Assembly: GCA_903921785.1 (NCBI GenBank)
Contig: CAIXRH010000014.1
Coordinates: forward strand, 1-64,000
DNA: 64,000 nt
Source: an uncultured Pseudomonadota bacterium
GTDB lineage: Bacteria > Myxococcota_A > UBA796 > SXON01
Direction: 5' to 3'
In this document: positions 20,181 to 48,383 of the stretch, one piece after another
How the letters are laid out: each line of letters begins with the position of its first letter
Numbering within the stretch: position 1 is the first letter of the stretch
Notes under the pieces: generated by a model
Told to the model about the DNA's origin: nothing
Seen by the model: the letters and a program-made list of their open reading frames with translations, nothing else
Database searches by the model: none
Position numbers and translations under genes: made by a program

Positions 20181-20198
20181 TCGGCGGCCTCCGCGTCG

Positions 20199-20228
20199 CG
20201 GGCCCCGGGGGTTGCCCCCCGGGGTCCG
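20199..20228 (+). terminator. Hairpin after the VWA gene, terminator-like without U-tract
   Basis: GGGCCCCGGGGG, a three-base loop (TTG) and CCCCCCGGGGTCC form a long GC-rich hairpin with one mismatch, about 20 nt after the VWA stop. There is no T run, so termination is only suggested. Confidence 0.45.
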
Positions 20229-20272
20229 CTCGCGACTCGGTTCGTGGTATCCTCCGCCGCGCGGAGGTTCGG

Positions 20273-20962
20273 ATGTCGATCGTGTTTCTCGTTGTTTCCA
20301 TGGCCCACGCCGAGAACTGGGACGGGGTGTACAGCGTCATCTCGAAGGAGGGCGCCTGGACGAATCAGGCCATCCTCCTCAGCCACGGCGCCACCGGCGG
20401 GGGCGGGATCCCCGGTGTCGCGCTCACCGAGGCGTACTGCACGCCCGACACCTTCCGGTGGCCCCAGGTGATCGCCGCGGGGAGCACGGCAAGCTGGATT
20501 GTCTTCCCCCTCAAGGACGCCGATCCGGGGACGAGCATCACCTGCACGGATCACGTGGACTCGTCCACCAAGCGGACCTTCACGATCACCCCGTGCAGCG
20601 GCGGCGGGTGCCCGGCGGTCAGCGGCGCAGGTCCATGGATCGCGCCGGCCTCCAGCACGCCGATCGTGAGCCTGAAGCCCGGCCTCTACCACGTGACCTC
20701 CCACCGGGAGGACACCTCCGGCACCCGCACGAGCGCCACCGCGGACATGTTCGTCCGGCCCACCGCCAACGCAAACGAGCACCTGGAGACCTGGTGTGTC
20801 GGCAGCGGGTTCCTCTGGCCGCAGATGAGCCAGAGCACCGGCGGCGTCACCTACAAGCGCACGTGGTTGGAGTACACGGTTGACGCGACGAACGGCGCCC
20901 CCGCGACCGTCACCTGCCCGGGCGGCACCACCCGCGCCGACTTCAAGTACACGATCGACTGA
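20273..20962 (+). CDS. Small secreted protein of unknown function
   Basis: The ATG at 20273 follows GCGGAGG and gives a short signal MSIVFLVVSMAHA with cleavage before ENWDG. The ORF track's start lies inside the VWA gene. The 229-aa product is rich in Gly/Thr/Ser/Trp and contains several Cys (EAYCTPDTF, TCTDHVD, CSGGGCP, TWCVGSGFLWP, VTCPGG), suggesting disulfides in the periplasm or outside the cell. Two internal halves repeat a pattern: a Cys-(x)n-F-x-WPQ motif occurs as CTPDTFRWPQ and CVGSGFLWPQ. This hints at a duplicated beta domain. No known family recognised. It converges tail to tail on the kinase gene with 6 nt between stops. Confidence 0.7.
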   Translation: MSIVFLVVSMAHAENWDGVYSVISKEGAWTNQAILLSHGATGGGGIPGVALTEAYCTPDTFRWPQVIAAGSTASWIVFPLKDADPGTSITCTDHVDSSTKRTFTITPCSGGGCPAVSGAGPWIAPASSTPIVSLKPGLYHVTSHREDTSGTRTSATADMFVRPTANANEHLETWCVGSGFLWPQMSQSTGGVTYKRTWLEYTVDATNGAPATVTCPGGTTRADFKYTID

Positions 20963-20968
20963 GCGCGA

Positions 20969-23900: not shown

Positions 23901-23977
23901 CCGCTGCCGATGGTGTGAAGGAGCCGGTAGCGGGCGTCGAACAGCGTCCGGCGCGCTTCGGCCGTCAGGTCCGCCAT
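20969..23977 (-). CDS. Ser/Thr protein kinase fused to a STAND-type AAA/helical-repeat region
   Basis: This 1002-aa protein has an N-terminal Hanks-type kinase domain (residues ~15-265): glycine loop IGSGGSG, VALK lysine, VVHRDLKPANV catalytic loop, LLDFGLARG and LAPEQLRG. All catalytic residues are present. Around residue 300 a P-loop ATPase begins (FAVTGGAGTGKTRLL), with a Walker-B-like LRVLVDDLDAHD. The remainder (~residues 520-980) is helical and Ala/Leu/Glu-rich, TPR-like. This kinase-plus-MalT/STAND layout is common among large-genome bacteria such as myxobacteria and couples ligand sensing to phosphorylation. No transmembrane segment is evident, so it should be cytoplasmic. It starts 9 nt after the upstream Cys-rich gene and is probably the last gene of that minus-strand run. 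Confidence 0.9.
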   Translation of the reverse strand: MADLTAEARRTLFDARYRLLHTIGSGGSGVVWRAHDVDTDAPVALKRVFVYSTSHRARVRREVAALRMLQLPGVVRLFDVGEVDGEPYLAMELLTGAAFPGAMEQGDWPLVVRRTLALCETLDRVHTLGVVHRDLKPANVIVEPDGRVVLLDFGLARGEPLAEPVTEAGGIVGTVGYLAPEQLRGCLPDLRADLYSLGVMLYEALGGHWRRPSGEGLRALLRGEDVELPRAPIEGVPDELNQVVAALLERQPERRPVSARAVAERLAEVLGAPLAPPIPIPFIGREACVERAFNALVEGGSFAVTGGAGTGKTRLLAQLRARLEAAGHTVVALTPGDRPFSGLFPVIGALPEGMGGLAAAAERLDALLRGGLRVLVDDLDAHDSWTRRVVDRCFAAGGLAIVARRPGAEVLEPLSADALRVLFVGPDPFLHLAEDGARLLYLRTQGLPVRIERELRTWLAVGRAAWDTAGAPPRLTLSRTQLDELEAWPGIAIHGLGGAVPLKLEAPLLEVLAWMVLAGPVRMETLGAAMGIPVWELELELQELEALGHAHRRADGRVEASVIPAHLDDLPEERIAGMHRQLAAARADEPESRMRHWLACAEVEPAVAAALEAAESFADIARLGRAKGLYAAAIRAARGANREDLESQALVGHVGVALSDFSFAAAEDTARYAERRGDPLALSLARLARAVADATRGRWAEAAAAAEALGPFEHETLEGTRQAVLVRCANLGQTRPISALLDELDGGAAMSAAGRSRFASWRGLAAYAAGDFPAAAHWHAESLALAPTPLRRIVANTNLAVALLDSFRSAEAQEVAERLTLAARHLRLPMFERWGFVLQVCAEYRLGRLTQAIDDETVAASALVGEDLVHANLCLSAAAVAWRKGDAALCILRATESAAAARAVNRPGAALLAGALVVACGGPSVDPVELIREATTSHPRIHLQVLALVAITQPALVASVDRPSLEPVPGGVRLEVLDRGEILRYLAAAPSGDAAGGRTPPA

Positions 23978-23986
23978 GCCGTCCGG

Positions 23987-24526
23987 TTAACGCCGCGACC
24001 GCCAGCGTGCGCATTCATCGCTGAGAACCTCCGTCCACACGGCGCCAGCTTCCCGATCACGCCCGCACTCGGTGAACGTGACGTAGCCCGGGTACGCGGA
24101 GGTGCGATCCCAGTCCTCGGCAGGGTCGGCCGGAGGCGGTAGCAGATGATCCGCGTTTTCACGAAGGGGGTGGAGCCAGCAGGCTCGAGGTTTGTACGCC
24201 CAACGATCGAGCCCGTCGGCCTCGGCGAGCACCTGGAGCGCACATCGGGCATCCGGGAGACAGAACACACAACGCGTGCGCGGAAAGTGCGCAGGGAAAT
24301 CGGGGGATCGATACGCGTGGGGGCGCGTCGCCGTCTTGTGCGCGCCGTCCGCGGACTCCAGGAATCGGTCTGGGAGACCCGGAAAATCGCCGCGACGGCG
24401 GAAGACGAGCCGGCGTAGGGCGCGAGCCTCCTCCGGCTCAAGCCACGCACCGTCGTGGCAGCACATCCCCTCACACACCGCGAGGTCGCAGGCTTTGAGC
24501 TTCGCGGGCGTCACGGGCGCCGCCAA
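23987..24526 (-). CDS. Cys-rich protein of the YkgJ/DUF3109-like type
   Basis: The 179-aa product has an N-terminal cluster ACDLAVCEGMCCHDGAWL and further pairs CVFCLPDARCALQ, ACWLHP and ECGRD. This resembles proteins of the YkgJ / DUF3109 group, proposed to bind zinc or an iron-sulfur cluster. Family membership is a judgement from the Cys spacing, and biochemical function is unknown. Its first 16 nt overlap the 3' end of the acetyltransferase gene, and the kinase gene begins 9 nt after its stop, so it belongs to a tightly packed minus-strand operon. ATG at 24526 used. Confidence 0.65.
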   Translation of the reverse strand: MAAPVTPAKLKACDLAVCEGMCCHDGAWLEPEEARALRRLVFRRRGDFPGLPDRFLESADGAHKTATRPHAYRSPDFPAHFPRTRCVFCLPDARCALQVLAEADGLDRWAYKPRACWLHPLRENADHLLPPPADPAEDWDRTSAYPGYVTFTECGRDREAGAVWTEVLSDECARWRSRR

Positions 24527-25023
24527 TCTGTGAAACCCAGGGCCAGCTCCAAGGAGTCACGCCACTCGCCGCGGAGCTCGAGCGTACGCGGGACGTGGCG
24601 AAGCACCCGGAACCCGAGCCCGGTGAGCAGCCGCAGGCACCGCCGGTTCTCCGGGTCCACCTCGGCGTGGAGCTCGGTGAAGGCCCGAGGTCCGAAGCCG
24701 TGAGCCACGAGCGCCTGGAGCGCCTCGCGCGCGATGCCCTGCCCGTGCTGGTCACGACGGAGCAAGAACCCGAGCTCCGACGCCCGCCAGAAGCCGGCCT
24801 TGCCGACCACCACGCCATCACGCTCCACCACAAAGTCGTCTGGGCCGGACCCGTCGACGTAGCCGTGCATCATCCGGCGCACGAAGCTGGCCGTATCTTC
24901 CACCGACGGATGAGGCTCCGTGGACCAGTAGCGCATGACCTCGGGGTCCGACATCGCCAGGAACAAGGACGGAGCATCGTCGACCGTCGCATGGCGGAGA
25001 CGGAGGCGCTCGGTGAGGATCAC
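24511..25023 (-). CDS. GNAT-family N-acetyltransferase (RimJ/RimL-like)
   Basis: This 170-aa protein starts with a GTG at 25023 that overlaps the previous stop (GTGA). MILTERLRLRHATVDDAPSLF is the classic RimJ/RimL beginning. ELGFLLRRDQHGQGIAREALQALVAHGF carries the acetyl-CoA pyrophosphate-binding loop (RRxxxGxG variant), and EVDPENRRCLRLLTGLGFRV is the conserved motif B region. It should transfer acetyl from acetyl-CoA to a protein N-terminus or small amine in the cytoplasm. The substrate is unknown. It sits between a YdcF-like gene and a Cys-rich gene with overlaps at both ends. Confidence 0.88.
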   Translation of the reverse strand: MILTERLRLRHATVDDAPSLFLAMSDPEVMRYWSTEPHPSVEDTASFVRRMMHGYVDGSGPDDFVVERDGVVVGKAGFWRASELGFLLRRDQHGQGIAREALQALVAHGFGPRAFTELHAEVDPENRRCLRLLTGLGFRVLRHVPRTLELRGEWRDSLELALGFTDWRRP

Positions 25024-25595
25024 CGGCCTTCCGCCCGGGCAAGCGCCATCGACCCCGCGTCGCGGGCGAGGAGGCGCCAGCGGTCAAAGGGCCGTCCCCA
25101 GGCGGGCGAGCGCACCGCCCACGCGACCGCCTCCGGGAAGCCCACCCGCCGCGCCAGGAGCAGCGCCCGGGCCACGTGGAACGGCTCCGTGACCAGGATC
25201 ACCCGCCGCGCGTCGGGGAGCAGTCCGCGGGCGAAGAGTAGGTTTCCATGGGTGTTCCGACTCTTCTCCTCCAGGAGGATCACCGAGTCGGGAACCCCCG
25301 CCGCCAAGAGGATCTCCCGAGCCACCACGGCCTCCCCCGGCGGACCCGCGTGGTGTGCGCCCGTCGTGACCACCCACGGCGCCCGACCCGCGTGATAGAG
25401 TTCGGCCGCGCCCTCCGCCCGAGATCGAAGCGAACCGCTCGCGACGCCCCCGGGCAGGACCCTGGCGCCGAGGACGATGATCGCGTCCGCCGTCCCCTCC
25501 GCCGGTGCGAGCTTCGTCCCCGCCCACACCGCCGATACCGCGGCGGGCAGCTCCGTCACCGCGCGCAGGGGCAGGGCCGGGTCCCAGCGCCGCAT
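25020..25595 (-). CDS. YdcF-family (DUF218) protein
   Basis: The 191-aa product contains TADAIIVLGARVLPGGVAS, RAEGAAELYHAGRAPWVVTTGA, EEKSRNTHGNLLFARGLL and ILVTEPFHVARALLLARRVGF. This is the ordered motif set of the DUF218/YdcF family (SanA/ElyC-like), proteins linked to envelope polysaccharide metabolism or S-adenosylmethionine binding. Most relatives have an N-terminal membrane anchor; none is obvious here, so this one may be soluble. It starts at the last base of the preceding gene's stop (TGATG) and overlaps the next by GTGA. Confidence 0.85.
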   Translation of the reverse strand: MRRWDPALPLRAVTELPAAVSAVWAGTKLAPAEGTADAIIVLGARVLPGGVASGSLRSRAEGAAELYHAGRAPWVVTTGAHHAGPPGEAVVAREILLAAGVPDSVILLEEKSRNTHGNLLFARGLLPDARRVILVTEPFHVARALLLARRVGFPEAVAWAVRSPAWGRPFDRWRLLARDAGSMALARAEGR

Positions 25596-26197
25596 CAGGT
25601 CTTCGGACGCCGCAGATACCAGGCAGCGCCGCCGATACCGAGGAGCACGAGCACCGCGGGGATGAGCTTCTCCAACGCGCCTTCGCCGAGGAGCCCGTCG
25701 ATCCGGGCGGTCAGCGATTCATCGGGGGGGACGGTCGCGTCCACCACCACGGAGGTGGGGCGCGGCTTCTCCATCAGCGCGATCTGCTCCTTGTCCCCCG
25801 GCTTCAGCCGCCCGTCGGTGTAGGTGGCGACCGGGGTGTACCAGGCGAACTGCTTGAACACCGCCGCGTGCTCGGGGACGGGGCTCGGCCGGCCACGACG
25901 CGCCCGAACGCCGTCCGCGATGAGGCGCCGGTCGGCGGGCGAGAGCTTCTCCACGTAGACCGGGTTGAACGGGGTGTCCGCGCGCTGGAGCATCCACATC
26001 GCCAGCGCCCGACTCAGCCGTGGGTCGCTCGGGTACTCGAGGAGCTCGGTGACGATGCTGGTCGCCGCCTCGTCCGTCTCGATGAGGCACTTGTAGGCCA
26101 TCGGCGAACCGTGTTCGCGGACGTCCACCAGCGCGGTGGGGACGGAGCACGGCTCGTCGGCCAGGGCGAACGAAGCGCCGAGGAGGAGGGCGATCAT
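25595..26197 (-). CDS. Membrane-anchored exported protein, unknown function
   Basis: The ATG at 26197 overlaps the glpK stop (ATGA) and gives a signal peptide [16 protein letters not shown]; the ORF track begins inside glpK. The 200-aa product has a middle region without recognised domains and a C-terminal transmembrane segment ([18 protein letters not shown]) followed by RRPKT. It therefore probably lies in the periplasm anchored at its C-terminus. Despite the coupling to glpK there is no sequence link to glycerol metabolism. The next gene (YdcF-like) starts within its stop codon. Confidence 0.7.
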
Positions 26198-32724: not shown

Positions 32725-33105
32725 TCAGAGGACGATCTGATCGTCCGCGAGGCCTGCCCGCACCACCGCGGCGAGCTCCCGCTCCAACGACTCCGGATCC
32801 AAGGCGTTCTGGAGCACGAGGATGTCCCCGAGCCGCGGCGTCTGGCGGCGCTGATCGATCAAGAGGTGGTCGACGTCGGCGGCGGTGAGGTAGCCCAGCG
32901 CAACGGCCACAGTGCCGAACGGCTCCTTGGACTCCGTCTGCTTCGAGAGAACCTCCAGCACCTGCCGGACGCTCATCTTGCGCTCACGCAGCGCCAATTG
33001 GCCGATTCGCGGTCGGCGCTGCTCCTGGAAATCCAGGGCGTCGATGAGCTGCTCGGGGCTGATGAGGCCCTGGCGGATGAGGTGTAGGCCAAGGGTCAAG
33101 CGCAT
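32725..33105 (-). CDS. Small protein with MshEN/GspE-N-like helical domain, in cheA operon
   Basis: The 126-aa protein reads MRLTLGLHLIRQGLISPEQLIDALDFQEQ then KMSVRQVLEVLSKQ and VAVALGYLTAADVDHLLIDQRRQTPRLGDILV. The duplicated 'lG..Lv..G.it.eql..AL..Q' pattern is that of the N-terminal domain of GspE/MshE-type secretion ATPases, which in some proteins binds c-di-GMP. Here it stands alone without an ATPase. Its start overlaps the end of the upstream cheA by 10 nt, so it is made together with that kinase. A regulatory input to the chemosensory array is possible but inferred. Confidence 0.6.
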   Translation of the reverse strand: MRLTLGLHLIRQGLISPEQLIDALDFQEQRRPRIGQLALRERKMSVRQVLEVLSKQTESKEPFGTVAVALGYLTAADVDHLLIDQRRQTPRLGDILVLQNALDPESLERELAAVVRAGLADDQIVL

Positions 33106-34799
33106 GGATACTCCGTGGAGGGGAACGTCCGGACCAGCTCGGCCAGCCCGACCGGATCGACGATTAACCCGACTCGGCCGTCTCCGAGGATCGCCGCCCC
33201 GGAGACGCCGTCCAACGGACCGAGGTCCGTGCCGATCGACTTCGCGACCACCTGTTGCTGGCCGAGGAGCTCGTCCACCTGCAGCGCATACGGTTCGCTC
33301 CCCGCGCGAAGGATGACCACAAGCCGCGCCCCCTCCGCGCTCTCCGGATTCCCAAACAAGCGAGACAGCCGATACACGGGCAGCACCCGCTCGCGAAGTC
33401 GCAGCATCTCGCCACGCCCCCAGAGCGTGAACAGGTCGCCTGCGGCGGGCTGCGCCACCGTCTCGATGCTCGAGGTGGGGATGACGTACCGCTGCTCGCC
33501 GGAGCGCACCAGCATGCCATCCAGGATCGCGAGTGTGAGCGGCAACGTGATGGTGAAGGTGGAGCCCTGTCCCACGACGGAGCGGATCTCCACCCGCCCC
33601 TTGAGCGTCTCCACGTTCCGACGGACGACGTCCATCCCGACCCCTCGCCCGCTGAGATCGGTCACGGTCTCGGCGGTGGAGAAGCCGGGGAGGAAGATGA
33701 GCTCGAGCGACTCCTTCTCGGAGAGCACCGCGTCGGCGGCGATGAGCCCCCGACTCACGGCCTTCGCGCGGATGCGCTCGGGGTCCATGCCCCGACCATC
33801 GTCGCTGAGCTCGACGATCACGGCGCCGCCCTCCTGGTAGGCCGCCAGCCGAACCGTGCCCGCCTCCGGCTTGCCCGCGGCCAGCCGCACCTCCGGCGAC
33901 TCAAGGCCGTGGTCGATCGCGTTTCGGAGCATGTGCACCAGCGGATCGCCCAGCGCCTCGACCACGTTCCGGTCGAGCTCTGTCTCTTCCCCGGAGCTGA
34001 CGAACTCCACCGGGCGGCGCACACGGTGGGCCGTGTCCCGCACCACGCGGTGTGCACGTTGGAACAGCTGCTTGAGCGGGACCATGCGCAAGGACATGGC
34101 CAGGCTCTGGAGCTGGCGCACGATGCCGATCTGCTGCTCGATGTCCCGCCCGAAGCCAGTGTCAAGCCCCGTCGAGCGCTGCATGCCCTGCATCACGATC
34201 GACGAAGCGATGACCAGCTCGCTGACCATGTCGACCATCCGGTCGAGACGGTCGGTACGGACGCGGACCCAGGCATCGGCGGCGGCGGCCGCGTTCGGAG
34301 ACGCCGCGGGGGTCCCCGGCTCGATGGCCGCCTCTTGCGTCGAGGGGCGGGCAGCCACCAATGGGGCCGCCAACGGCTGATCCTCGAGGGTGAGCACCAA
34401 CAGTCGAGTCTCGATCGCTTCCAGGTCTCCCGGCAACTCAGCCGGGCGGCCCTGCGCGGCCGCCCCGGTCGCTTCCACCAGGAGCCGGAGCCCGTCGAGC
34501 GCGGCGATGCAGGCGTTCGCTCTCTCTCCAGCGAAGGTCATCTCCCCCGCGCGGATCCTCGAGAGCAGGGACTCGGCCTTGTGGGCGAGCGAGACCAGCG
34601 CGTCCAGACCGAGGAACCCGGCGACCCCCTTGATCGTGTGAAACGCCCGGAAGACCGCACCGATCGCCGCTGCATCGTCGGGGCGCTGCTCCAAGGCGAG
34701 GAGGTTGGTCTCGGCGGTGGCCACCTGCTCCGCCGCCTCGACGAGGAACTCGGACAGGAGCTCCATGTCGGTGTCGGCGGGAAGTGTGAGGCTGGCCAT
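33096..34799 (-). CDS. cheA: CheA-type chemotaxis histidine kinase (first copy)
   Basis: The ATG at 34799 follows GCGGAGG and starts MASLTLPADTDMELLSEFL; the ORF track's start is upstream. Domains of the 567-aa protein: HPt (residues ~10-110) with phospho-accepting His54 in FRAFHTIKGVAGFLG; dimerisation (DRMVDMVSELVIASSIV); HATPase with N-box HMLRNAIDHGLE, DDGRGMD and GRGVGMDVVR; C-terminal CheW-like domain to about residue 565. The linker lacks an obvious P2 CheY-binding domain. It donates phosphate to CheY/CheB in the cytoplasmic array. Transcribed away from the main che operon, from a shared 121-bp divergent region, with a small GspE-N-like gene overlapping its end. Confidence 0.93.
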   Translation of the reverse strand: MASLTLPADTDMELLSEFLVEAAEQVATAETNLLALEQRPDDAAAIGAVFRAFHTIKGVAGFLGLDALVSLAHKAESLLSRIRAGEMTFAGERANACIAALDGLRLLVEATGAAAQGRPAELPGDLEAIETRLLVLTLEDQPLAAPLVAARPSTQEAAIEPGTPAASPNAAAAADAWVRVRTDRLDRMVDMVSELVIASSIVMQGMQRSTGLDTGFGRDIEQQIGIVRQLQSLAMSLRMVPLKQLFQRAHRVVRDTAHRVRRPVEFVSSGEETELDRNVVEALGDPLVHMLRNAIDHGLESPEVRLAAGKPEAGTVRLAAYQEGGAVIVELSDDGRGMDPERIRAKAVSRGLIAADAVLSEKESLELIFLPGFSTAETVTDLSGRGVGMDVVRRNVETLKGRVEIRSVVGQGSTFTITLPLTLAILDGMLVRSGEQRYVIPTSSIETVAQPAAGDLFTLWGRGEMLRLRERVLPVYRLSRLFGNPESAEGARLVVILRAGSEPYALQVDELLGQQQVVAKSIGTDLGPLDGVSGAAILGDGRVGLIVDPVGLAELVRTFPSTEYPCA

Positions 34800-35190: not shown

Positions 35191-35556
35191 ATGGGCAAGA
35201 CCGTCCTCGTCCTCGATGACTCTGCGAGCGTTCGCCGTCTCGTTGTCGCCACCCTCCAAGGGGCCGGCTACTCCGTCGTGGAAGGCGAGCATGGCGCCGA
35301 GGGGCTCGCCGCGCTCGACCGCTCCGCCGTAGACGCCATCGTCACCGACCTGAACATGCCGGTGATGAACGGGCTGGACTTCGTCCGCGCCGCTCGGCGC
35401 CGACCCGCCAATCGGTTCACGCCCATCCTGATGCTCACCACCGAGACCGGAGAGGCCAAGAAGCAGGAAGGCCGGGCCGCCGGATGTACCGGCTGGATCA
35501 ACAAGCCCGTGTCGCCGCCCACGCTGTTGCAGGTCCTGGCCCGGGCGGTGCCGTGA
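35191..35556 (+). CDS. cheY: CheY-like response regulator (first copy)
   Basis: This 121-aa single receiver domain reads KTVLVLDDSASVRR (acidic pair Asp9/Asp10), AIVTDLNMPVMNGLDFV (phospho-acceptor Asp53), MLTTETGE (switch Thr) and GWINKPVSPPTLLQVL (conserved Lys). It has no output domain, so it should act by protein contact. Its start abuts the STAS gene's stop and its stop overlaps the next cheA (GTGA). The kinase encoded directly downstream is the natural phosphate donor. Confidence 0.93.
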   Translation: MGKTVLVLDDSASVRRLVVATLQGAGYSVVEGEHGAEGLAALDRSAVDAIVTDLNMPVMNGLDFVRAARRRPANRFTPILMLTTETGEAKKQEGRAAGCTGWINKPVSPPTLLQVLARAVP

Positions 35557-37562
35557 CCGAGGGGTCCCCGCTCGATCTCAGCCGCTTCCTCCCCCTGTTC
35601 TTCGAGGAGGCGGAGGAGCACCTCGAGGTGCTCGAGCGCGGCTTGATGGCGGCGGAGTCCGGCGCCGACCCGCGCCCGTTCATCGACGACTGCTTCCGGG
35701 CCGCCCACTCGCTCAAGGGCTCGGCGGGGAGCCTCGGCCTCCACATCGTCGTGGGCCACACCCACGTCCTGGAGACCGAGCTCGACGCCGTTCGCGGCGG
35801 GGCCCGCCCGCTCGACCGGGCCCTCGCCGGACACCTCCTCGTGGGGGTGGACCTGCTCCGGCGGGTCCTCGATTCGCTCACGGCCGGCGGAGACGGACAG
35901 GTGGAGGGCGCCGCCGAGTGGACTCACGGGGCCGTCTCCGGAGCCGTGAGCCCGGTGGAAGCCCGCCCCGAAGCGGCAAGGGGCGGGCTGCGCCTGCGCC
36001 TGTCGACGCACGCGGACACGTTCCGATGCGGCCTCGACCCCCTGCCCCTCCTCCGCGACCTGGACATGCTCGCGGGCGTCGTGCGCGCCGAGCTCGCCGC
36101 CATCCCGGAGCTCGACGAGCTCGATCCGACGACCTGTCACCTGACCTGGACCCTCGGCCTCGCCGAGTCTCCTCCGCCGGAGATGGTCGACGAGCTGTTT
36201 GGCTTCGCAGACCATCTGTTCACGGTGGAACATCTGCCCGACGTCGCAGACGTGCCCCAGGCCGTGGCAACGCCAGCCGTTTCTGTGGCCCCGGGGCCCG
36301 CCCACGTCGCCGCGCCGGCGCCGCGTCCCGAACGCGCAACACTCCGGATCGCGACGGAGAAGGTCGACCGATTGGTCGACCTCGTCGGCGAGCTGGTGAT
36401 CTCCCAGGCGATCCTCGGCGAGGTGCTCCACGAGCTGGGGCAAGCCGCCAGCGAGCGCGTGCAGAGCGCATTCGCAACCTTGGAGCGCAACACTCGCGAG
36501 GTTCAGGAGCGCGCGATGGGCATCCGGATGCTCCCAGTCGCCATGGCGTTCGACCGGCTGCCTCGGTTGGTCCGCGACCTCGGCGAGCGCCTCGGCAAGC
36601 GCATGGGGGTGGTGATCGAAGGGGAGGAGACGGAGCTCGACCGGAGCGTGCTCGAGCACCTCACTGACCCCCTCACCCACCTCATCCGCAACTGCGCCGA
36701 CCACGGCATCGAGCCGGCCGCCGATCGCGAAGCGGCCGGAAAACCCCCGGTCGGCACCGTGCTGGTCCGCGCGATGCACCAGGGCTCCACGGTGATCATC
36801 GAGGTTTCCGACGACGGCCGCGGGCTCGACTACGCGCGCATCCGCACCCGCGCCGTGGAGCGGGGCATCCTCGGCGCCGAAGCCGCGCTCAGCGAAGCCG
36901 AGACGATCGAATTGCTCTTCGCTCCCGGCTTCTCCACCGCGGACACGGTCTCCGACGTCAGCGGTCGTGGCGTCGGGATGGACGTCGTCCGGCACAGCAT
37001 CGAGGCTCTCGGCGGGCGCGTGGCGATGTCCAGCAAGCTCGGCGAGGGCACCCGCGTACGGATGACCTTCCCGCTCACCCTCGCCATCGTGGAGGGGCTC
37101 TGCGTGCGCGTGGCCGACACCACCTACGTGGTGCCCATGGCGGCGATCACCAGCTCGTTCCGCCCGAACCCCCGCGATCTCAAGCCAGTGCTCGGCCGCG
37201 GAGAGCTGGTGATCTCGCAAGGCGTGCAGATGCCGCTCGTCCGGCTCTCCGAAGTGCTCTCCGGGCCACCGGGCGTCGAGGACCCGTGCCGCGGGCTCCT
37301 GGTCGTGGTCCAGCACGAGGCCGACCAGGCTGCCCTGTTGGTCGATGGGGTCATCGGGTCCACCCAGGCCGTCATCAAGAACCTCGAACGGAACTTCCAA
37401 CGGGTGGAGGGGGTGATGGGCGCCACCATCCTCGGCGACGGCCGCGTCGCGCTCGTCCTCGATGTCGCCGGCGTCCTCCGCCTGGCCCGCCGGCGCACCG
37501 GTTCTTCACGCGTTCGCACTTCTATCGCTCTCGGAGCCGCATCATGCACGGTCCAACCTTGA
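35553..37562 (+). CDS. cheA: CheA-type chemotaxis histidine kinase (second copy)
   Basis: The true start is a GTG at 35553 overlapping the cheY stop (GTGA), giving MTEGSPLDLSRFLPLFFEEAEEHLEVLE and 669 aa. The HPt domain has His52 in FRAAHSLKGSAGSLG. Residues ~130-230 form a possible P2-like region. KVDRLVDLVGELVISQAIL is the dimerisation domain. HLIRNCADHGIEPA, DDGRGLDYARI and GRGVGMDVVR define the ATPase, and a CheW-like domain ends the protein. The last ~20 residues ([17 protein letters not shown]) are read through the start of cheW, overlapping it by 19 nt. Autophosphorylates in response to receptors and phosphorylates CheY/CheB. Confidence 0.94.
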   Translation: MTEGSPLDLSRFLPLFFEEAEEHLEVLERGLMAAESGADPRPFIDDCFRAAHSLKGSAGSLGLHIVVGHTHVLETELDAVRGGARPLDRALAGHLLVGVDLLRRVLDSLTAGGDGQVEGAAEWTHGAVSGAVSPVEARPEAARGGLRLRLSTHADTFRCGLDPLPLLRDLDMLAGVVRAELAAIPELDELDPTTCHLTWTLGLAESPPPEMVDELFGFADHLFTVEHLPDVADVPQAVATPAVSVAPGPAHVAAPAPRPERATLRIATEKVDRLVDLVGELVISQAILGEVLHELGQAASERVQSAFATLERNTREVQERAMGIRMLPVAMAFDRLPRLVRDLGERLGKRMGVVIEGEETELDRSVLEHLTDPLTHLIRNCADHGIEPAADREAAGKPPVGTVLVRAMHQGSTVIIEVSDDGRGLDYARIRTRAVERGILGAEAALSEAETIELLFAPGFSTADTVSDVSGRGVGMDVVRHSIEALGGRVAMSSKLGEGTRVRMTFPLTLAIVEGLCVRVADTTYVVPMAAITSSFRPNPRDLKPVLGRGELVISQGVQMPLVRLSEVLSGPPGVEDPCRGLLVVVQHEADQAALLVDGVIGSTQAVIKNLERNFQRVEGVMGATILGDGRVALVLDVAGVLRLARRRTGSSRVRTSIALGAASCTVQP

Positions 37563-38020
37563 CCTCCAACCAGCCGGCCGTGGCCGACATCCCCCGCCAA
37601 TGCCTCACGTTCGTGCTCGCCAAGGAAGAGTACGGCGTCGACATTCTCCGCGTGCAGGAGATCAAGGGGTTCACCGCGGTCACCCCGCTGCCGAACACCC
37701 CGCCGCACATCCGGGGGGTGATGAACCTCCGCGGGACCGTGGTGCCGGTGATCGATCTCCGCAGCCGCTTCGGCATGCCCGAGCACCCGTACGACAAGTT
37801 CACCGTCATCATCGTGCTCACGGTGGGGACCCGCGTGGTCGGTCTCGTGGTGGACGCGGTGAGCGACGTGCTGGAGATGGCCGACGTGGGCGTGGACGCG
37901 ACGCCCGACCTCGGCGCGGGCGTGGACACCTCGTTCCTCCGCGGGGTGTGCCGCTCGGGCGAACGGCTCGTCATGCTCCTGGACATCGACCAGGTCGTCG
38001 GCCTGGACACCGGGCGCTGA
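37544..38020 (+). CDS. cheW: CheW coupling protein
   Basis: The ATG at 37544, behind TCGGAG and inside the end of cheA, gives 158 aa. [48 protein letters not shown] and [13 protein letters not shown] are the hallmark CheW strands, with the conserved Arg/Gly turn contacting the receptor. It links receptors to CheA in the array. The following receptor gene begins one base after its stop, so receptor and coupling protein are probably made together. Confidence 0.95.
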
Positions 38021-38021
38021 C

Positions 38022-39296
38022 GTGTCCCTCTCGAGGCTGAACCTCGTGCAGCAGGCGCTCGTGGTCCACGGAGCCCAGGCGGTGGCGCTGATCGGCCTGG
38101 GCGCTTGGGTGGCGTCGCGTGCCGAGTCGGGCGGGATGGTCTTCCTGATTGGCACGGTCATCCTCGCGGTCCTCGGCCTCGCCAGCGCCACGTTGGTGGC
38201 CCACGGCTGCGCCCGGGTGCTGGAGCAGGCGGCGGCGGTGCTCGACGCCGCCCGGCAGCGGGACCTCCGGGGCCGCGTGCCCACCGAACGAACGGACGAG
38301 GCCGGGCGAATCGCCCGCGCGGTCGGCCACACGCTTGACGTCCTCTCGCGGGCCTTCGGCGAGGTCCGAGGCGCGGCGCAGCACCTCGGAAGCGCGGCCG
38401 GGAGCGTCACCGAGTGGGCGCGGGAGGCCGAGGAGGCCGCCGGCCAGCAGGCGATCGCGCTCGAGGCGGCGCTGCAGGGCATCGCCGAGGCGCGCGCGGG
38501 CGTGGTGTCGAACGCCGATCAGGCGCGACAGGCGCATCAACTGGCGCTGCGAAACCGCGAGATCGCCGAAAGTGGCGGCGTCGTGCTCCGCTCCACGGTT
38601 CGGGCGGTCACCGACATCGACGAAGCCAGCGCCCGCATCCGGGAGATCGTCACCACCATCGACGACATCGCCTTCCAGACCAACCTGCTCGCGCTCAACG
38701 CGGCGGTGGAAGCGGCCCGGGCCGGGGAAAACGGCCGGGGCTTCGCGGTCGTGGCCAGCGAAGTACGCAACCTCGCCCAACGGAGCGCGACCGCCGCGAG
38801 AGAGGCGAAGACCCTCATCGGACAGTCCGTCGAGCGCGCCCAGAACGGCGCTCGCCTCGCCGCGAAGGCGGGGGCCACCTTCGAGGAGGTCATCGCCAGC
38901 AGCCGTCGGGTCGCCGACATCGTCGCCGAGCTCTCGGCGGGGCTCACCGAGGAGGGCAGCACGCTCAACCGTGCCGACGCCGCCACGGCCGACGCCCTGG
39001 GTCGGGGGCGACAGTTGGCCGAGTCCGGCGCCCAGCTCGTGCTCCATGCGGACGCGCTGCGCTCCGCGGTCACGTCCTTGACCACCCTCGCCGACGCGTT
39101 CTCCGGCGTACAAGCCGTCGCCCCGCCGCTGGTGATGCCGACGCCGGTCGAAGACACCGGGGACTTCCTCCCCGAGCCCGCGCTCGCGCCCCTCGACGCT
39201 CCCGTGCCCGCTCCGCGCCGGGTGAGCAGCGACTCGGTCGACTTCGCCGGCATGCGCCCCACCCCACCCAGCGACGACGCCTTCGACGGCAATTGA
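38022..39296 (+). CDS. Methyl-accepting chemotaxis protein without periplasmic domain
   Basis: The GTG start at 38022 gives a 424-aa protein with two closely spaced transmembrane segments (about residues 14-31 and 38-60, only a handful of residues between). A HAMP-like stretch and a signalling domain follow, with the conserved hairpin tip [48 protein letters not shown]. It has no ligand-binding domain outside the cell, so it may sense the membrane state or cytoplasmic signals, or rely on partners. The C-terminus (DDAFDGN) lacks the NWETF-type tether for CheR/CheB. It is encoded inside the che operon. Confidence 0.92.
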
Positions 39297-39297
39297 C

Positions 39298-40842
39298 ATG
39301 TCCACCCTCGACGCAACCCAGCTGGCCAGCCTCGACACCGCGACGTTTGACGCGATCCGTCGACGGATCTACGAACTCGCGGGGATCTCGCTGGGGGAAG
39401 GGAAGCGCCTGATGGTCGAAGGGCGGCTCGGCAAGCGCGTCCGCCAACTGGGTCTGCCTTCGTACAAGGCCTACCTCGCCCGGCTCGACGAGGCGGGGCA
39501 GGAAGAAGAACGCACCTTCATCAACGCGCTCACCACCAACAAGACCGACTTCTTCCGAGAGGAGCACCACTTCGAGTACCTCGCCTCCGCCGTCTTCCCG
39601 GCCGTGCTCGCGCGCGCCGAACGCGGAGGGCCGAAGCGCTTGCGCATCTGGTGCGCCGCGTCGAGCACCGGGGAGGAGCCCTGGTCGTTGGCGATGACGG
39701 TCGCGGAGTCGTTCGGCGTACGGCCCGGGTGGGACGTGCAGATCGTCGCCAGTGACATCGACACCGACGTGCTGGAACGGGCAAAACGGGGGGTGTACGA
39801 AGAAGACCGGATGAGCGGTGTGAGCGTCGCGAGGCGCAACAAGCACTTCCAGCAGGGCCGCGGGGAAGCCGACGGATGGTTCCGGGTGAAGGACTCCCTC
39901 CGGAGCCTGGTGTCGTTCCGCCAGCTGAACCTCATCGGCGAGCGCTGGGACCTGCCCGACGCCATTGACGTCATCTTCTGCCGCAACGTGATCATCTACT
40001 TCGACCGCCCCACGCAGACGCGCCTGTTCGCGCGGATGGCGGACCGAGTGGCGCCCGGCGGGTACCTCTTCGCCGGCCACTCCGAGTCGCTCCTCGGCGT
40101 CACTGATCGCTTCGAGCCGATCGGCAACACCGTGTACCGGCTCGCCGGCTCCACAAATGTCCGCCCCGCGCCTTCGGCCCCCGCGCCCGCGAAACACGGT
40201 CACGGACATGGCCACGGACATGGCCACGGGCACGCCCAGGTCCACCCAGCGGCTTCCCCCCGGGCAACCCCGCCGCCACCCCAAGCGCCCGAAGTCAGCG
40301 CCGAGGCCAAACTTCCCCTCAAGCGGATCATCGTCGGCGAAGTCCACGCCAGCGCCGAGCCCGTCCGGATCGCCACCGTACTCGGCTCCTGCGTGGCCGC
40401 CTGCTTGTGGGACCCGGTGAGCGGCATCGGGGGGATGAACCACTTCCTCCTTCCGGACGGAGAACATGGCGGGGGCGGCGACGCCGCCCGCTACGGGATC
40501 CACGCGATGGAGCTCCTGATCAACCAGATCATGGGCCTCGGCGGCGACCGTCGGCGGTTGCAGGCGAAGGTCATGGGCGCGAGTCAGCTCTCGAACCTGC
40601 AAAGCAACGTGGCCGTGCGTAACGCCACCTTTGTCCGCGAGTTCCTCCGCGATGAGGGGATCAGCGTCGTGGCCGAGCGCCTGCTCGGCGACAAGCCGCT
40701 CGAAGTGCACTTCCTGCCTCACACCGGCGTGGTCCTGGTCCGGGAGGTCGGCCGGCAGGCCGTCACCGCCGCGGAGACCGAGGCCGCGCGCCTGGCCAAG
40801 GAGCTTGAGTCCGAAAAAGCTCCGTCCGTCACCCTGTTCTGA
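39298..40842 (+). CDS. CheR-CheD fusion: receptor methyltransferase plus receptor deamidase
   Basis: This is one 514-aa ORF with two complete chemotaxis enzymes. Residues ~15-280 are CheR: an N-terminal helical domain, RIWCAASSTGEEPWSLAM (SAM-binding motif I), ASDIDTDVLERAKRGVY, FRQLNLI and DVIFCRNVIIYFD. A linker with an alternating His-Gly tract (GHGHGHGHGHGHA, ~residues 301-315) follows. Residues ~345-495 are CheD: ATVLGSCVAACLWDP with nucleophile Cys365, and GGMNHFLLP with His382, 17 residues later, the spacing expected of CheD. CheR methylates receptor glutamates and CheD deamidates receptor glutamines. It lies between the receptor gene and cheB. The His-Gly tract could bind metal ions. 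Confidence 0.94.
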   Translation: MSTLDATQLASLDTATFDAIRRRIYELAGISLGEGKRLMVEGRLGKRVRQLGLPSYKAYLARLDEAGQEEERTFINALTTNKTDFFREEHHFEYLASAVFPAVLARAERGGPKRLRIWCAASSTGEEPWSLAMTVAESFGVRPGWDVQIVASDIDTDVLERAKRGVYEEDRMSGVSVARRNKHFQQGRGEADGWFRVKDSLRSLVSFRQLNLIGERWDLPDAIDVIFCRNVIIYFDRPTQTRLFARMADRVAPGGYLFAGHSESLLGVTDRFEPIGNTVYRLAGSTNVRPAPSAPAPAKHGHGHGHGHGHGHAQVHPAASPRATPPPPQAPEVSAEAKLPLKRIIVGEVHASAEPVRIATVLGSCVAACLWDPVSGIGGMNHFLLPDGEHGGGGDAARYGIHAMELLINQIMGLGGDRRRLQAKVMGASQLSNLQSNVAVRNATFVREFLRDEGISVVAERLLGDKPLEVHFLPHTGVVLVREVGRQAVTAAETEAARLAKELESEKAPSVTLF

Positions 40843-40851
40843 GTATCCCTC

Positions 40852-41991
40852 ATGGCCCGCACCCGCGTCCTGGTCGTCGATGACTCCGCGCTCATGCGCC
40901 AGTTGCTCACCGACCTCATCAATCGATCCCCGGACTTCGAGGTGGTCGGCAGCGCCCCGGACCCCTACGCGGCGTGGGACCGCATCAAGCAGCTCCGGCC
41001 CGACGTCCTCACCCTCGACGTGGAGATGCCCCGCCTCGACGGGATCAGCTTCCTCGAGCGGCTGATGCGCAATTTTCCGATGCGCGTGGTGATGGTCAGC
41101 TCGCTCACCGAGCGCGGCTGCGAAACCACGCTTCGCGCGCTGGAGATCGGCGCGATCGACTATGTCGCCAAGCCGAAGCTCGATCTCACCCGGGGAATGG
41201 AGTCCCTTGGGGAGGAGCTGCTCGACAAGCTCCGCAACGCAGCGGCCGCACGGGTGCCCACCGCCCGAACCGCCGCAGCCCCGCCCCCGGCCACGTACAC
41301 TCCGTCGCCGCCCCCCGCCACGACGGCGCCCGCTCCGACGCGCCCGGCCGCGGGGCTCTCCTTCGCCGCCACCCACAAGGTCATCGCGATCGGCGCCTCC
41401 ACCGGGGGGACCGAAGCGCTCAAGGACGTGCTGGCGGCGGTCCCCGCGGACTCGCCCGGGGTGGTGATCGTCCAACACATGCCCCCGATGTTCACCGCGC
41501 AGTTCGCTGAACGTCTCAACCGGATGAGCCGGATGACGGTGAAGGAGGCGAAGGACGGGGACCGGGTGCTCCCCGGCGTCGCGCTGCTCGCGCCCGGCGG
41601 CCAACAGATGGAGGTGGTGCGCAGCGGCGCCCAATACTCGGTCAAGGTGTACGCGGGTCCGCCGGTGAGCCGGCACTGCCCGAGCGTGGATGTGCTCTTC
41701 GACTCCTGTGCCCGGCAGGTGGGCGCCAACGCGGTGGGGGTGATCCTCACCGGGATGGGCGACGACGGCGCCAAGGGCATGCTCGCCATGCGCCAGGCCG
41801 GAGCCCGCACGATCGCCCAGGATGAACGGTCCTGTGTGGTTTTCGGGATGCCCAAGGAGGCGATCGCGCGGGGCGGCGTGGAGTCGGTGCTCCCGCTCGG
41901 CTCCATCGGCCCCTCGATGCTCGCCATGGCGAACGGAAACCTCAAGACCGACCGTGTTCGTGCCGATCAGGGTGCCGCACCTGTTTCCTGA
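40852..41991 (+). CDS. cheB: CheB protein-glutamate methylesterase
   Basis: The 379-aa protein has an N-terminal receiver domain (RVLVVDDSALMRQLL, phospho-acceptor in LTLDVEMPRLDG, MVSSLTERG, AKPKLDL) and a Pro/Ala-rich linker (~residues 130-165). The methylesterase domain has the catalytic Ser in IGASTGGTEALKD, His in VQHMPPMFTAQFAERLNR and Asp in GMGDDGAKGM. It removes methyl groups from receptors, opposing the CheR half of the upstream fusion. 9 nt separate it from that gene. Confidence 0.96.
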   Translation: MARTRVLVVDDSALMRQLLTDLINRSPDFEVVGSAPDPYAAWDRIKQLRPDVLTLDVEMPRLDGISFLERLMRNFPMRVVMVSSLTERGCETTLRALEIGAIDYVAKPKLDLTRGMESLGEELLDKLRNAAAARVPTARTAAAPPPATYTPSPPPATTAPAPTRPAAGLSFAATHKVIAIGASTGGTEALKDVLAAVPADSPGVVIVQHMPPMFTAQFAERLNRMSRMTVKEAKDGDRVLPGVALLAPGGQQMEVVRSGAQYSVKVYAGPPVSRHCPSVDVLFDSCARQVGANAVGVILTGMGDDGAKGMLAMRQAGARTIAQDERSCVVFGMPKEAIARGGVESVLPLGSIGPSMLAMANGNLKTDRVRADQGAAPVS

Positions 41992-42001
41992 GGAGATCCC
42001 C

Positions 42002-42358
42002 ATGAACGTCCTGATCGTGGATGACAGCAAGGCGATGCGCATGATCGTGGCGCGTACGCTCCGCCAGATGGCGGTGGCCGTGACGTCGATCACCGAGGCC
42101 GCGGACGGCTCCGACGCCCTCCCGCTGGCGAAAGCCGGCAAGTACGACCTCATCATCTGCGACTGGAACATGCCCCAGATGAACGGGATCGACTTCCTCC
42201 GCGAGCTCCGCAAGGCGGGCATCCGCACCCGCTTCGGGTTCTGCACCTCGGAGGCCACCCCCGACATGCGCGTGATGGGGATGCAAGCCGGCGCCCAGTT
42301 CTTCGTCACCAAGCCGTTCACCGCTGACACCTTCCAGAACGCCATGAAGGCGGCGTAG
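42002..42358 (+). CDS. cheY: CheY-like response regulator (second copy)
   Basis: The ATG at 42002 follows TGAGGAGA and gives a 118-aa single receiver: MNVLIVDDSKAMRMIV (Asp7/Asp8), DLIICDWNMPQMNGIDFL (Asp54), and FFVTKPFTADTFQNAM (Lys). The ORF track's longer start lies inside cheB. Unlike the first CheY, the switch Thr/Ser position reads FCTSEATP. It is a candidate output regulator for the second CheA, or for motility machinery elsewhere. Confidence 0.93.
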   Translation: MNVLIVDDSKAMRMIVARTLRQMAVAVTSITEAADGSDALPLAKAGKYDLIICDWNMPQMNGIDFLRELRKAGIRTRFGFCTSEATPDMRVMGMQAGAQFFVTKPFTADTFQNAMKAA

Positions 42359-42367
42359 CGAGGCCCC

Positions 42368-42859
42368 ATGGCGATCGTCCTTCCTCCTGCCGTTCCCGAC
42401 GCGGAAGAGCTCCGCGCGCTGCTCGCACAGCTCCTTGGCAAGCCCGTCGCCCTCAAGTCCCCCGTCGGGCCACCGAAGCCGAACATCGCCCCGCAGGTGC
42501 AGGCCATGTACTGCGCGGCGGACGGGACTGCGCGCGCGATGGCATCGGTCGACCTTCCGCTCGCCGCCAACCTCGGCGCCGCGCTGGCGATGATGCCCGC
42601 GGCCACCGCCGCCGAAGCCGCCCGCTCCGGCCGGATGAACGAGCTGCTGTCCGACTGTCTCCACGAGGTCCTCAACGTCTGTGCACGCCTGCTCAACCGC
42701 CCGGGCGGGATGCACGTGGTGCTCAAGAAGGTCGCCGCGGCGCCGGACTCGCTCCCGGCCGACGTACGCGCGGCCCTGTCCAAGGCGCCGCTCCAGCGGG
42801 AGTACGACCTCGAGATCGCCGGGTACGGCCGAGGGAAGATCGTGTTCCGCGCCGCCTGA
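42368..42859 (+). CDS. Unassigned chemotaxis-operon protein (possibly CheC/CheX-like)
   Basis: The 163-aa product follows cheY by 9 nt and precedes a strong terminator, so it is the last gene of the che operon. It reads VQAMYCAADGTARAMASVDLPLAANLGAALAMMPAATAAEAARSG then MNELLSDCLHEVLNVCARLLNRPGGMHVVLKKV. A central helix with 'E.LN(v).....' and the alpha/beta layout recall CheX/CheC phosphatases, but the diagnostic ExxN pair is not clean (HEVLN). No other family is recognised. A role in CheY-phosphate removal is a hypothesis from position. Confidence 0.6.
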   Translation: MAIVLPPAVPDAEELRALLAQLLGKPVALKSPVGPPKPNIAPQVQAMYCAADGTARAMASVDLPLAANLGAALAMMPAATAAEAARSGRMNELLSDCLHEVLNVCARLLNRPGGMHVVLKKVAAAPDSLPADVRAALSKAPLQREYDLEIAGYGRGKIVFRAA

Positions 42860-42915: not shown

Positions 42916-42985
42916 GACTCCGGATCACTACCTAAAGTCGCCGGTACAACGATCCGACGTTGAACCATCGCACCACGGAGTGGGC

Positions 42986-44704
42986 ATGTCTCTGTCGATT
43001 CGGTCGCGGCTCTTCGGGCTGGTGGGGCTCGCCGGCCTGAGCATCGGCGGGTTCGCCGGTTACGTCTATGTCAACACCGAGGAGCACGTCGAGGAGTCCG
43101 ATTTCCGCCCAGTCAACGAGGTCAACGTGCTGCTCGCGGACGAGCTGCCGCCCCCGGCCTACGCGATCGAAGCCTTCCTGGTGTGTCAGCGCCTCGAGGA
43201 CACCACGGACCCGGCCGCGCGCGCCTCTTTGATCGAAGAATTCGGAAAACGTGAGGCTGAGTTCCATAGCCGGATCGCCTACTGGTCCGAACACTTGCCC
43301 GACGGTCCCCTCCGGGCGCAGATCACCGGTCCCATGGCAAAGTCGGGCGATGCGTTCTTCGGCGCGGTGCACGGCAAGTTCCTCCCGGCCATCGAATCGA
43401 ACGATCTCGCCGCAGCCAGCACGATCACCAGCAGCACCCTCACCCCGCTCTTCCTCGACCACCGCGAGGCGGTGGTGCGGGCCGTTGAGGTCACCAACCT
43501 CGAACTCGCCGCACGAACCTCCACGGTGGAGCGCCAGATCGGCACAACCAAGACCGAATTCGCCGTCCTCGGTTCGTTCCTCGCGGCGCTCGGCCTCGCC
43601 ATCGGCGCCTGGATCACCCGCGACCTGTCTTCACGCCTCACCGCCGCGGATCACACCCTCCGTTCCGTCGCCGACGGCGACTACCGGGTGCGCATGGAGG
43701 AGGGCGCGGACGACGAGCTCGGGCAGATGGCGCGGTCGCTCAACCGGGCCGTCGGCGCGGTCGAGCAGGCCATCGCCGATGTACGGGGGATTGCGGAGGG
43801 GCTGGCAGACTCGGCCCGGCGCCTGAGCAGCTCCGCGGAGGAGATCAGCGCCGGCGCCCAGTCCCAGGCCAGCGCCCTCGAAGAGACCGCAGCCAACCTG
43901 GAAGAGATCACCGCGACCATCCATGCCTCCAGCTCCCGCGCGGGCGGCGCCCGACAGCTCGCTGTGGCGTCGCGAGACGTCGCGGTGCAGGGAGGCAAGG
44001 TGGTCGAGGACGCGGTCTCCGCGATGACCGCCATCAACCAGTCGTCCACGCGGATCGCCGCGATCATCGGCACGATCGACGAGATCGCCTTCCAGACCAA
44101 CCTCCTCGCGCTCAACGCCGCGGTCGAAGCGGCCCGGGCGGGAGAGCAAGGCCGCGGGTTCGCGGTCGTGGCCGCCGAAGTGCGGAACCTGGCGCAGCGG
44201 AGCGCCACCGCGGCCCGCGAGACCAAGGAGCTCATCCAAGACAGCCAGCGGAAGGTGGGCGACGGCACCCAGCTGGTGAACCGCTCCGGCGACATCCTGC
44301 GGGAGATCGTCACCAGCGCCAAGGGCGTGGCCGAGACCGTGGACGAGATGGCCGGCGCCTTCCGGGACCAGTCCACGGGCGTGAATGAGGTGCACAAGGC
44401 GGTGAGCCAGATGGACACGGTGACGCAGACCAATTCGGCCGCCACCACCGACCTGAGCGACATGTCCGCGGGCCTTGCGGCCCAGGCCACCCAGCTCAGC
44501 CATGCGATGTCCCGGTTCCACGTCGGTGTCGCCGCCAACGTCGCCCCGGTGGCCGTCAGCACCGCCCTCCACACGCCGAAGGTGGCGATGGCCAAGCGCG
44601 CCCGTCCGGCGAGCCGGCCGCGCCCCGCCCCGGGTGTCGGAGCGCCGGCCTCCAGGGGTCCGTCCGACTTCCCGTCCGACACCGAGATGTTCGACACGCT
44701 CTGA
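42986..44704 (+). CDS. Methyl-accepting chemotaxis protein with periplasmic four-helix domain
   Basis: The ATG at 42986 is preferred over GTG 42980 for spacing from CACGGAG. The 572-aa protein has TM1 (residues ~9-29) and a helical periplasmic ligand-binding region of ~165 residues (4HB-like; AYAIEAFLVCQRLED, STLTPLFLDHREAVVRAVEV). TM2 (~VLGSFLAALGLAIGAWI), HAMP and a signalling domain with [47 protein letters not shown] follow. The C-terminal tail is Ala/Pro/Arg-rich, ending DTEMFDTL, without the NWETF tether. It follows the che operon after a terminator, so it has its own promoter, and is followed by a TTCG-loop hairpin. Confidence 0.94.
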   Translation: MSLSIRSRLFGLVGLAGLSIGGFAGYVYVNTEEHVEESDFRPVNEVNVLLADELPPPAYAIEAFLVCQRLEDTTDPAARASLIEEFGKREAEFHSRIAYWSEHLPDGPLRAQITGPMAKSGDAFFGAVHGKFLPAIESNDLAAASTITSSTLTPLFLDHREAVVRAVEVTNLELAARTSTVERQIGTTKTEFAVLGSFLAALGLAIGAWITRDLSSRLTAADHTLRSVADGDYRVRMEEGADDELGQMARSLNRAVGAVEQAIADVRGIAEGLADSARRLSSSAEEISAGAQSQASALEETAANLEEITATIHASSSRAGGARQLAVASRDVAVQGGKVVEDAVSAMTAINQSSTRIAAIIGTIDEIAFQTNLLALNAAVEAARAGEQGRGFAVVAAEVRNLAQRSATAARETKELIQDSQRKVGDGTQLVNRSGDILREIVTSAKGVAETVDEMAGAFRDQSTGVNEVHKAVSQMDTVTQTNSAATTDLSDMSAGLAAQATQLSHAMSRFHVGVAANVAPVAVSTALHTPKVAMAKRARPASRPRPAPGVGAPASRGPSDFPSDTEMFDTL

Positions 44705-47231: not shown

Positions 47232-48311
47232 TCAGCAGCCGCTGCTGGCCTTCCCCGGCGAGCCCTTGTCCGACGCCGCGCCCGAGATCGCCGACGTGGC
47301 CATGCACCAGCTTCGGGCCGAGTCGTTCGAGCTGGTGTCGGCCTTGCTGTCGTTGAGCTCGATGCTCGCGCCCTTGGCGAGGGGCCAGCCGGCGGTCTCG
47401 TCCCAGGTCACCGCATCGAGCGTGGTGGTGTTGCCGCCGTTCGCGCGGCCGACGTAGAGGTCGTCGCCCGAGTTGTTGAAATTCACGCCACGACCTGCAT
47501 AGTCGAAGTCAGCGGTCACCCCACCGTTGAGCGTGGAGTCGCCCTGCGCCGCGAAAACGAGGCGGTCCCCGTCCGTGGCCACCAGGGCGCTGTCCACGGT
47601 GAACAGGTCGGCCGCCCCGAAGCTCGGGTCATCCGCCACCCGGAGCCCCTCGAGGTTCACCGAGGTCTCCGTGCTGACGAGGAGCTCGAACCACTCGCCG
47701 TCCCCGTCACTGACCGCGTCGGGGTCGTACATGATCTCGGTGATGACCAGCTCGCCGGCCTTGAGGTCGGCCACGCCGTAGTCCGCGCCGTCGCAGTCCT
47801 TGTCCACGTCGTCGCCGCGGGTCTCCTTCGCGTCGGGGTGCACGCTGGCGTTCCCATCATCGCAGTCGGTGCCGTGAACGGCCTCGCTGGCGTAGCCGTC
47901 CCCGTCCGCGTCGGCCTCCGCGGTGGCGTCCTTGCCGTCGCAGTCCTGGTCGATCTTGTCGCCCGCGGGGTCCGCGGCGCCGGGGTGGATGCTCGGATCC
48001 TCGTCGTTGCAGTCCACCGCGTCGGAGTAGCCGTCTGCGTCGGCGTCCACGAAGCTCCCGGTGTCCGACCCGGTGTCGGCGCCGGTGTCATTGTTGTAGC
48101 CGTCTGCGTCGTCGCAATTGGCGTCGATCCCGTCGCCGGCGGCGTCGTTGGCGCCAGGATGCACATTCGGATCGGCGTCGTCACAATCCACGGAGGCCAG
48201 GTAGCCGTCGTGGTCCGCGTCCACGAAGTCGGTCCCGGAGGCCCCACTGTCGTTGGCGATGGACGTGGAGGTATCACAGGCAGCCAGGGCCAGCAGGAGC
48301 AGAGGGGTCAT
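47232..48311 (-). CDS. Lipoprotein with MopE-type repeats and a lamin-tail-like domain
   Basis: The ATG at 48311 gives MTPLLLLALAACDTS, a lipoprotein signal (LAAC). Residues ~28-190 of this 359-aa protein are Asp/Cys repeats (DADHDGYLASVDCDDADPNVHPGA, DADADGYSDAVDCND, DKIDQDCDG) of the MopE metal-binding type, like those in the large surface protein at 10.8 kb. Residues ~195-350 (GELVITEIMYDPDAVSDGDGEWFELLVSTETSVNLEGLRV) match a lamin-tail (LTD) domain, an extracellular beta-sandwich. Inferred to be surface-exposed. It ends near a triple hairpin and lies 72 nt downstream of hcrB on the same strand, but is unlikely to belong to the aromatic operon functionally. Confidence 0.87.
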   Translation of the reverse strand: MTPLLLLALAACDTSTSIANDSGASGTDFVDADHDGYLASVDCDDADPNVHPGANDAAGDGIDANCDDADGYNNDTGADTGSDTGSFVDADADGYSDAVDCNDEDPSIHPGAADPAGDKIDQDCDGKDATAEADADGDGYASEAVHGTDCDDGNASVHPDAKETRGDDVDKDCDGADYGVADLKAGELVITEIMYDPDAVSDGDGEWFELLVSTETSVNLEGLRVADDPSFGAADLFTVDSALVATDGDRLVFAAQGDSTLNGGVTADFDYAGRGVNFNNSGDDLYVGRANGGNTTTLDAVTWDETAGWPLAKGASIELNDSKADTSSNDSARSWCMATSAISGAASDKGSPGKASSGC

Positions 48312-48383
48312 GCATCGAGTGTACCGCCACGCCGTCACGGAAGGAGGGCAAGCCGTCACCGAACCGTACTCGGGAAGGAAACG

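Follow-up and report, generated by a model that had tools for sequence, protein, structure and literature searches.

A single open reading frame in the window (the whole 64,000-nucleotide stretch of DNA analysed) was found to encode a CheR receptor methyltransferase and a CheD receptor deamidase in one chain. The frame (P0001) runs from an ATG to a TGA over positions 39298-40842 (+) and specifies 514 amino acids. Judged from the sequence, the single-chain protein is real, and the catalytic sites of CheR and CheD are both intact. The preliminary description, which proposed one frame with two complete enzymes and with Cys365 and His382 at the spacing of CheD, was borne out on both points. The gene and its parts are as follows.

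39298..40842, +, cheR-cheD fusion gene, 514 aa, P0001 (Pfam, NCBIfam, alignment, AlphaFold2, Foldseek)
39298..40146, +, CheR methyltransferase part, residues 1-283 (Pfam, structure match)
40147..40323, +, Pro/Ala/His/Gly linker, residues 284-342 (sequence, AlphaFold2)
40195..40233, +, HGHGHGHGHGHGH tract, residues 300-312 (6/12-bp tandem repeat in the DNA)
40324..40815, +, CheD deamidase domain and terminal helix, residues 343-506, with T360, C365 and H382
40816..40839, +, C-terminal tail, residues 507-514, ending in S-V-T-L-F (tail motif of this CheD type)

Three Pfam domains were recognised, all above their gathering cut-offs: CheR_N (residues 17-64, 52.3 bits, cut-off 27), the CheR SAM-binding domain (residues 81-280, 207.5 bits, cut-off 27) and CheD (PF03975, residues 384-482, 75.3 bits, cut-off 25). 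Based on NCBIfam and an alignment to T. maritima CheD (2F9Z), the full CheD domain covers approximately residues 343-486. The catalytic residues C365 and H382 are present, with a Cys-to-His spacing of 17. T360 is located five residues before C365, not six as in T. maritima CheD. Upon alignment of five fusions (this one, L035, L036, L115 and L167), T360, C365 and H382 were invariant, as were the catalytic residues of CheR and CheD alike. The CheR part is predicted to methylate receptor glutamates and the CheD part to deamidate receptor glutamines.

In the AlphaFold2 model (mean pLDDT 87), both domains are confidently predicted and the linker between them is disordered. Residues 294-326 and 507-514 fall below pLDDT 50, and docking of the VTLF tail, contained in the latter, within its own chain is not predicted. 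For the CheR part the closest solved structure is Salmonella CheR (1BC5/1AF7, 42% identity, TM 0.9); Foldseek confirmed the CheR fold (1BC5, TM 0.91 on the target) and matched the CheD part with T. maritima CheD. The loop length of the CheR part is that of the pentapeptide-binding Salmonella CheR, and the gap of three residues seen in P. aeruginosa CheR1 is absent.

The gene is embedded in a chemotaxis operon, the other members of which are listed here.

35191..35556, +, CheY-type receiver, first gene of the operon
35484..37562, +, CheA kinase with Hpt, dimerisation, HATPase and CheW domains (Pfam)
37544..38020, +, CheW, likely start ATG 37544 (Pfam)
38022..39296, +, receptor MCP1, two hydrophobic stretches near the N-terminus, C-terminus AFDGN (Pfam)
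40852..41991, +, CheB methylesterase, receiver and catalytic domain (Pfam, NCBIfam)
42002..42358, +, second CheY (Pfam)
42368..42859, +, predicted CheC/CheX/FliM-type fold with an E-x2-N motif, without Pfam match
42980..44704, +, receptor MCP2, HAMP and signalling domain, C-terminus DTEMFDTL, Glu-Glu methylation sites

The resulting order, cheY-cheA-cheW-MCP1-cheRD-cheB-cheY-(CheX-like)-MCP2, agrees with the ancestral F7 order cheY-cheA-cheW-receptor-cheR-cheD-cheB-receptor given in PMC7184735, with an extra cheY and the CheX-like gene inserted before MCP2. The operon can be described as F7-like, a type assigned here by gene order alone. For the CheX-like protein, sequence searches returned no Pfam or PDB matches. 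Its model, with a mean pLDDT of 79 from a three-sequence alignment, was matched by Foldseek to FliM, FliY, CheC and CheX (E about 1e-5 to 1e-3), the fold resembling FliM/FliY and CheX more than CheC. Distant homologues of this protein adjoin cheY in two other loci (L012 and L033). FliG and 11 receptors are encoded in the genome.

Internal initiation and a sequencing error fusing two genes were the two caveats attached to the preliminary description. The sole in-frame start codons near the CheR/CheD junction are GTG279 and GTG366, with no further one between these codons. GTG279 sits within CheR and has no Shine-Dalgarno-like sequence, and GTG366 follows the catalytic Cys365 by one codon, leaving no suitable in-frame start ahead of that residue. 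The Shine-Dalgarno criterion itself is weak, the ATG of the fusion also being without an evident one. An assembly or sequencing error that joined two genes would be conceivable, as the source is one contig of a 362-contig draft genome and codon usage in the 13 codons of the tract agrees better with frame +1 than with frame 0. It is nevertheless extremely improbable: positions 40132-40407 are free of stop codons in all three frames, which means that one indel could not have masked where CheR ends, and an artefact is also unlikely given that five other assemblies contain the CheR-CheD architecture.

Those five fusions were the outcome of a survey of domain architectures, as suggested in the preliminary description, and bring the total to six genomes in three groups, this one included, with CheR and CheD recognised by Pfam in all six. 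Fusions L036 (an Archangiaceae MAG, Myxococcota) and L035 (a Gemmatimonadota MAG) were found among the 80 closest CheD loci in named genomes, and wider surveys added L115 and L203, both from the phylum of the window, and L167, from the same phylum as L035. The survey comprised about 1,585 genome searches, some genomes being searched twice, and the 80 loci; Proteobacteria were covered through these nearest 80 CheD loci and not genome-wide. No fusion was present in close relatives (same genus, family or class) among 71 genomes of the class. In a plasmid collection, the best matches covering both domains were in two pieces, with no single continuous fusion. A long frame in L168 was discarded as a candidate, since Pfam showed CheD alone and no CheR. 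A literature search yielded no description of a CheR-CheD fusion. The fusion is a rare, real architecture and a new form of known parts.

Unfused relatives have overlapping cheR and cheD genes and an unchanged operon order; in 80 of them cheR lies directly before cheD, and the genome itself contains a second, unfused cheR-cheD pair (G000 contig C45, ~19840-26024; L027, L191). In 68 of the 80, the point at which cheR stops already falls within the open cheD frame, and a small change therefore suffices for fusion. The present gene probably arose in this manner from a cheR and a cheD gene that lay side by side and overlapped in an F7-like chemotaxis operon. A single origin was not rejected by the CheD tree (p-AU 0.55) and weakly rejected by the CheR tree (p-AU 0.03), both excluding L203, which was found later; fusion may have happened once or several times.

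The linker counts 59 residues (284-342), is rich in Pro and Ala, and encloses the tract HGHGHGHGHGHGH (H300-H312), confirming the alternating (Gly-His)n run previously noticed. Chance does not account for this run: shuffling the linker residues 100,000 times never produced it, and its DNA pattern arose in none of 100 dinucleotide-shuffled versions of the window. It occurs once in the 7.5-Mb draft genome and is encoded by a 6/12-bp tandem repeat. No such tract is present in the linkers of the other five fusions, which are Ser/Pro/Ala in L036 and L115, short in L167, loosely His/Ala/Thr-rich in L035 and a Ser-Pro repeat in L203. As the linkers differ completely among the fusions, the spacer appears to evolve freely, and the His-Gly run would be a private version of it, probably a mere flexible spacer.

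The preliminary description had also proposed that the tract could bind Ni, Zn or Cu and make adaptation metal-sensitive. In such a switch, metal binding would alter the compactness of the linker or the pairing of chains. The non-random, genome-unique tract with its seven alternating His residues and one more nearby is what speaks for such a switch, together with the metal binding by His-rich tails or loops of other proteins described in the accessible parts of PMC10170517 and PMC12203963. Binding of Ni, Zn or Cu in vitro would almost inevitably follow from seven close His residues, however, and would therefore not by itself demonstrate regulation. The tract is missing from the other fusions, with only the L035 linker loosely His-rich; it is predicted to be disordered by AlphaFold2, its 6/12-bp repeat can arise by slippage, and there is no metal-handling gene among the identified genes surrounding the fusion. 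A metal switch is thus very unlikely, and the idea adds little, the His-Gly linker being a curiosity.

It is rather likely that the protein functions as a co-localised single-chain adaptation enzyme, with CheR and CheD on a disordered spacer of about 59 residues. The tie would set CheR and CheD at a 1:1 ratio and place both enzymes on one receptor cluster. CheD would then probably serve above all as an arm that docks on receptors and brings CheR to them, possibly responsive to CheC/X, and its deamidase would probably act on receptors with Gln that are encoded elsewhere in the genome. There is room for such an arm because the local receptors are without a CheR tether: by the pattern -x-[HFYW]-x2-[HFYW] used in PMC7184735, neither MCP1 (AFDGN) nor MCP2 (DTEMFDTL) carries an intact one. 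Two observations argue against docking. The L191 receptor, encoded on contig C45 and ending in AFRDF, does carry an intact tether, the only one of the 11 receptors of the genome to do so, and docking through CheD may be unneeded because the CheR loop is as long as in Salmonella CheR.

The preliminary description proposed channelling, in which Glu formed from Gln by CheD would be methylated straight away by the attached CheR. Such ordered two-step catalysis is in line with the intact active sites of both enzymes and with Gln in consensus-like sites of four receptors of the same genome (L191, L197, L198 and L189). In the adjacent MCP2, both sites that match the strict methylation consensus are already Glu-Glu, and MCP1 has no Gln-bearing consensus match. 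Moreover, deamidation of a given site occurs once and irreversibly, whereas methylation is cyclic. Because of the Glu-Glu sites of MCP2 and the finding that the deamidase activity of B. subtilis CheD is minor next to its binding partnerships (PMC3513319), strict channelling is doubtful, and ordered catalysis is unlikely. A further possibility is that CheD mainly answers to the CheC/CheX-fold protein of the operon and to CheY-P, shifting CheR on and off the receptors in a manner similar to B. subtilis. The CheX-fold protein is encoded three genes downstream of the fusion and CheC-CheD binding exceeds enzyme activity in B. subtilis (PMC3513319), but with a fold less near to CheC than to FliM/FliY and CheX this is quite unlikely. 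Proximity and docking describe the fusion better than channelling; of the preliminary reading, the single-chain protein with intact sites stands, while channelling and metal sensitivity are weakened.

The tail of the fusion protein is shared with other CheD proteins. The ending x-[VIL]-[ED]-[LFM]-F was found in 91 of 166 CheD rows (the loci overlap), including nearly all close ones, and in none of about 220 rows of CheA, CheB and CheW. Four McpA-like receptors (L035, L037, L051 and L066) have the same ending as the CheDs. The end of McpA is described in PMC7184735 as conserved, Val occupying position 2, and as unclear in its role, and the accessible part of that paper does not connect it with CheD. 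From these sequences, the tail looks like a common docking motif of CheD and McpA-like receptors, offering a concrete site for mutation. More speculatively, and rather unlikely as a whole, the x-[VIL]-[ED]-L-F tail would dock a common adaptation partner, with CheD as the adaptor bringing CheR to receptors without a pentapeptide and the fusions hard-wiring this link. Among the close relatives, the CheD ORFs of loci L034-L140, the conserved end has the form x-[VIL]-[ED]-L-F.

Two receptor-modifying enzymes in one chain are also known from CheB-CheR fusion proteins, which L016 and L020 resemble. There, opposed steps are joined, whereas the CheR-CheD protein joins methylation and deamidation. With stand-alone F7-like CheR and CheD (PF01739/PF03705, PF03975; PRK13487-type CheD) it has domains, catalytic residues, gene order and the xVxLF tail in common, the overlapping genes being replaced by a linker of about 59 residues in one chain. 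CheR-TPR proteins such as M. xanthus FrzF (PMC3447774) similarly carry an extra C-terminal domain with a possible role in modulating or localising methylation, but the domain added here is CheD, a second receptor-modifying enzyme, and not TPR. In the T. maritima CheD-CheC complex (2F9Z) the CheD fold and Cys/His site are alike (about 34% identity), and CheD is stand-alone and bound to a separate CheC. A natural CheR-CheD fusion suggests that CheR and CheD act at one place on receptors. The role of CheD beyond deamidation in F7-type systems, a long-standing question, can be tested by comparing tied with untied enzymes.

Another possible CheD fusion was observed in L126 (730-2388, +), where CheD shares an open frame with a CheB-type receiver. 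Within the window, a second CheA gene (33096-34799, -) is divergent from the operon and located beside a small DUF4388-like ORF (32725-33105), and the ORF at 47232-48359 (-) encodes repeated D-x-D-x-DG motifs resembling calcium-binding sites ('DADADGYSDAVDCNDEDPSIHPGA').
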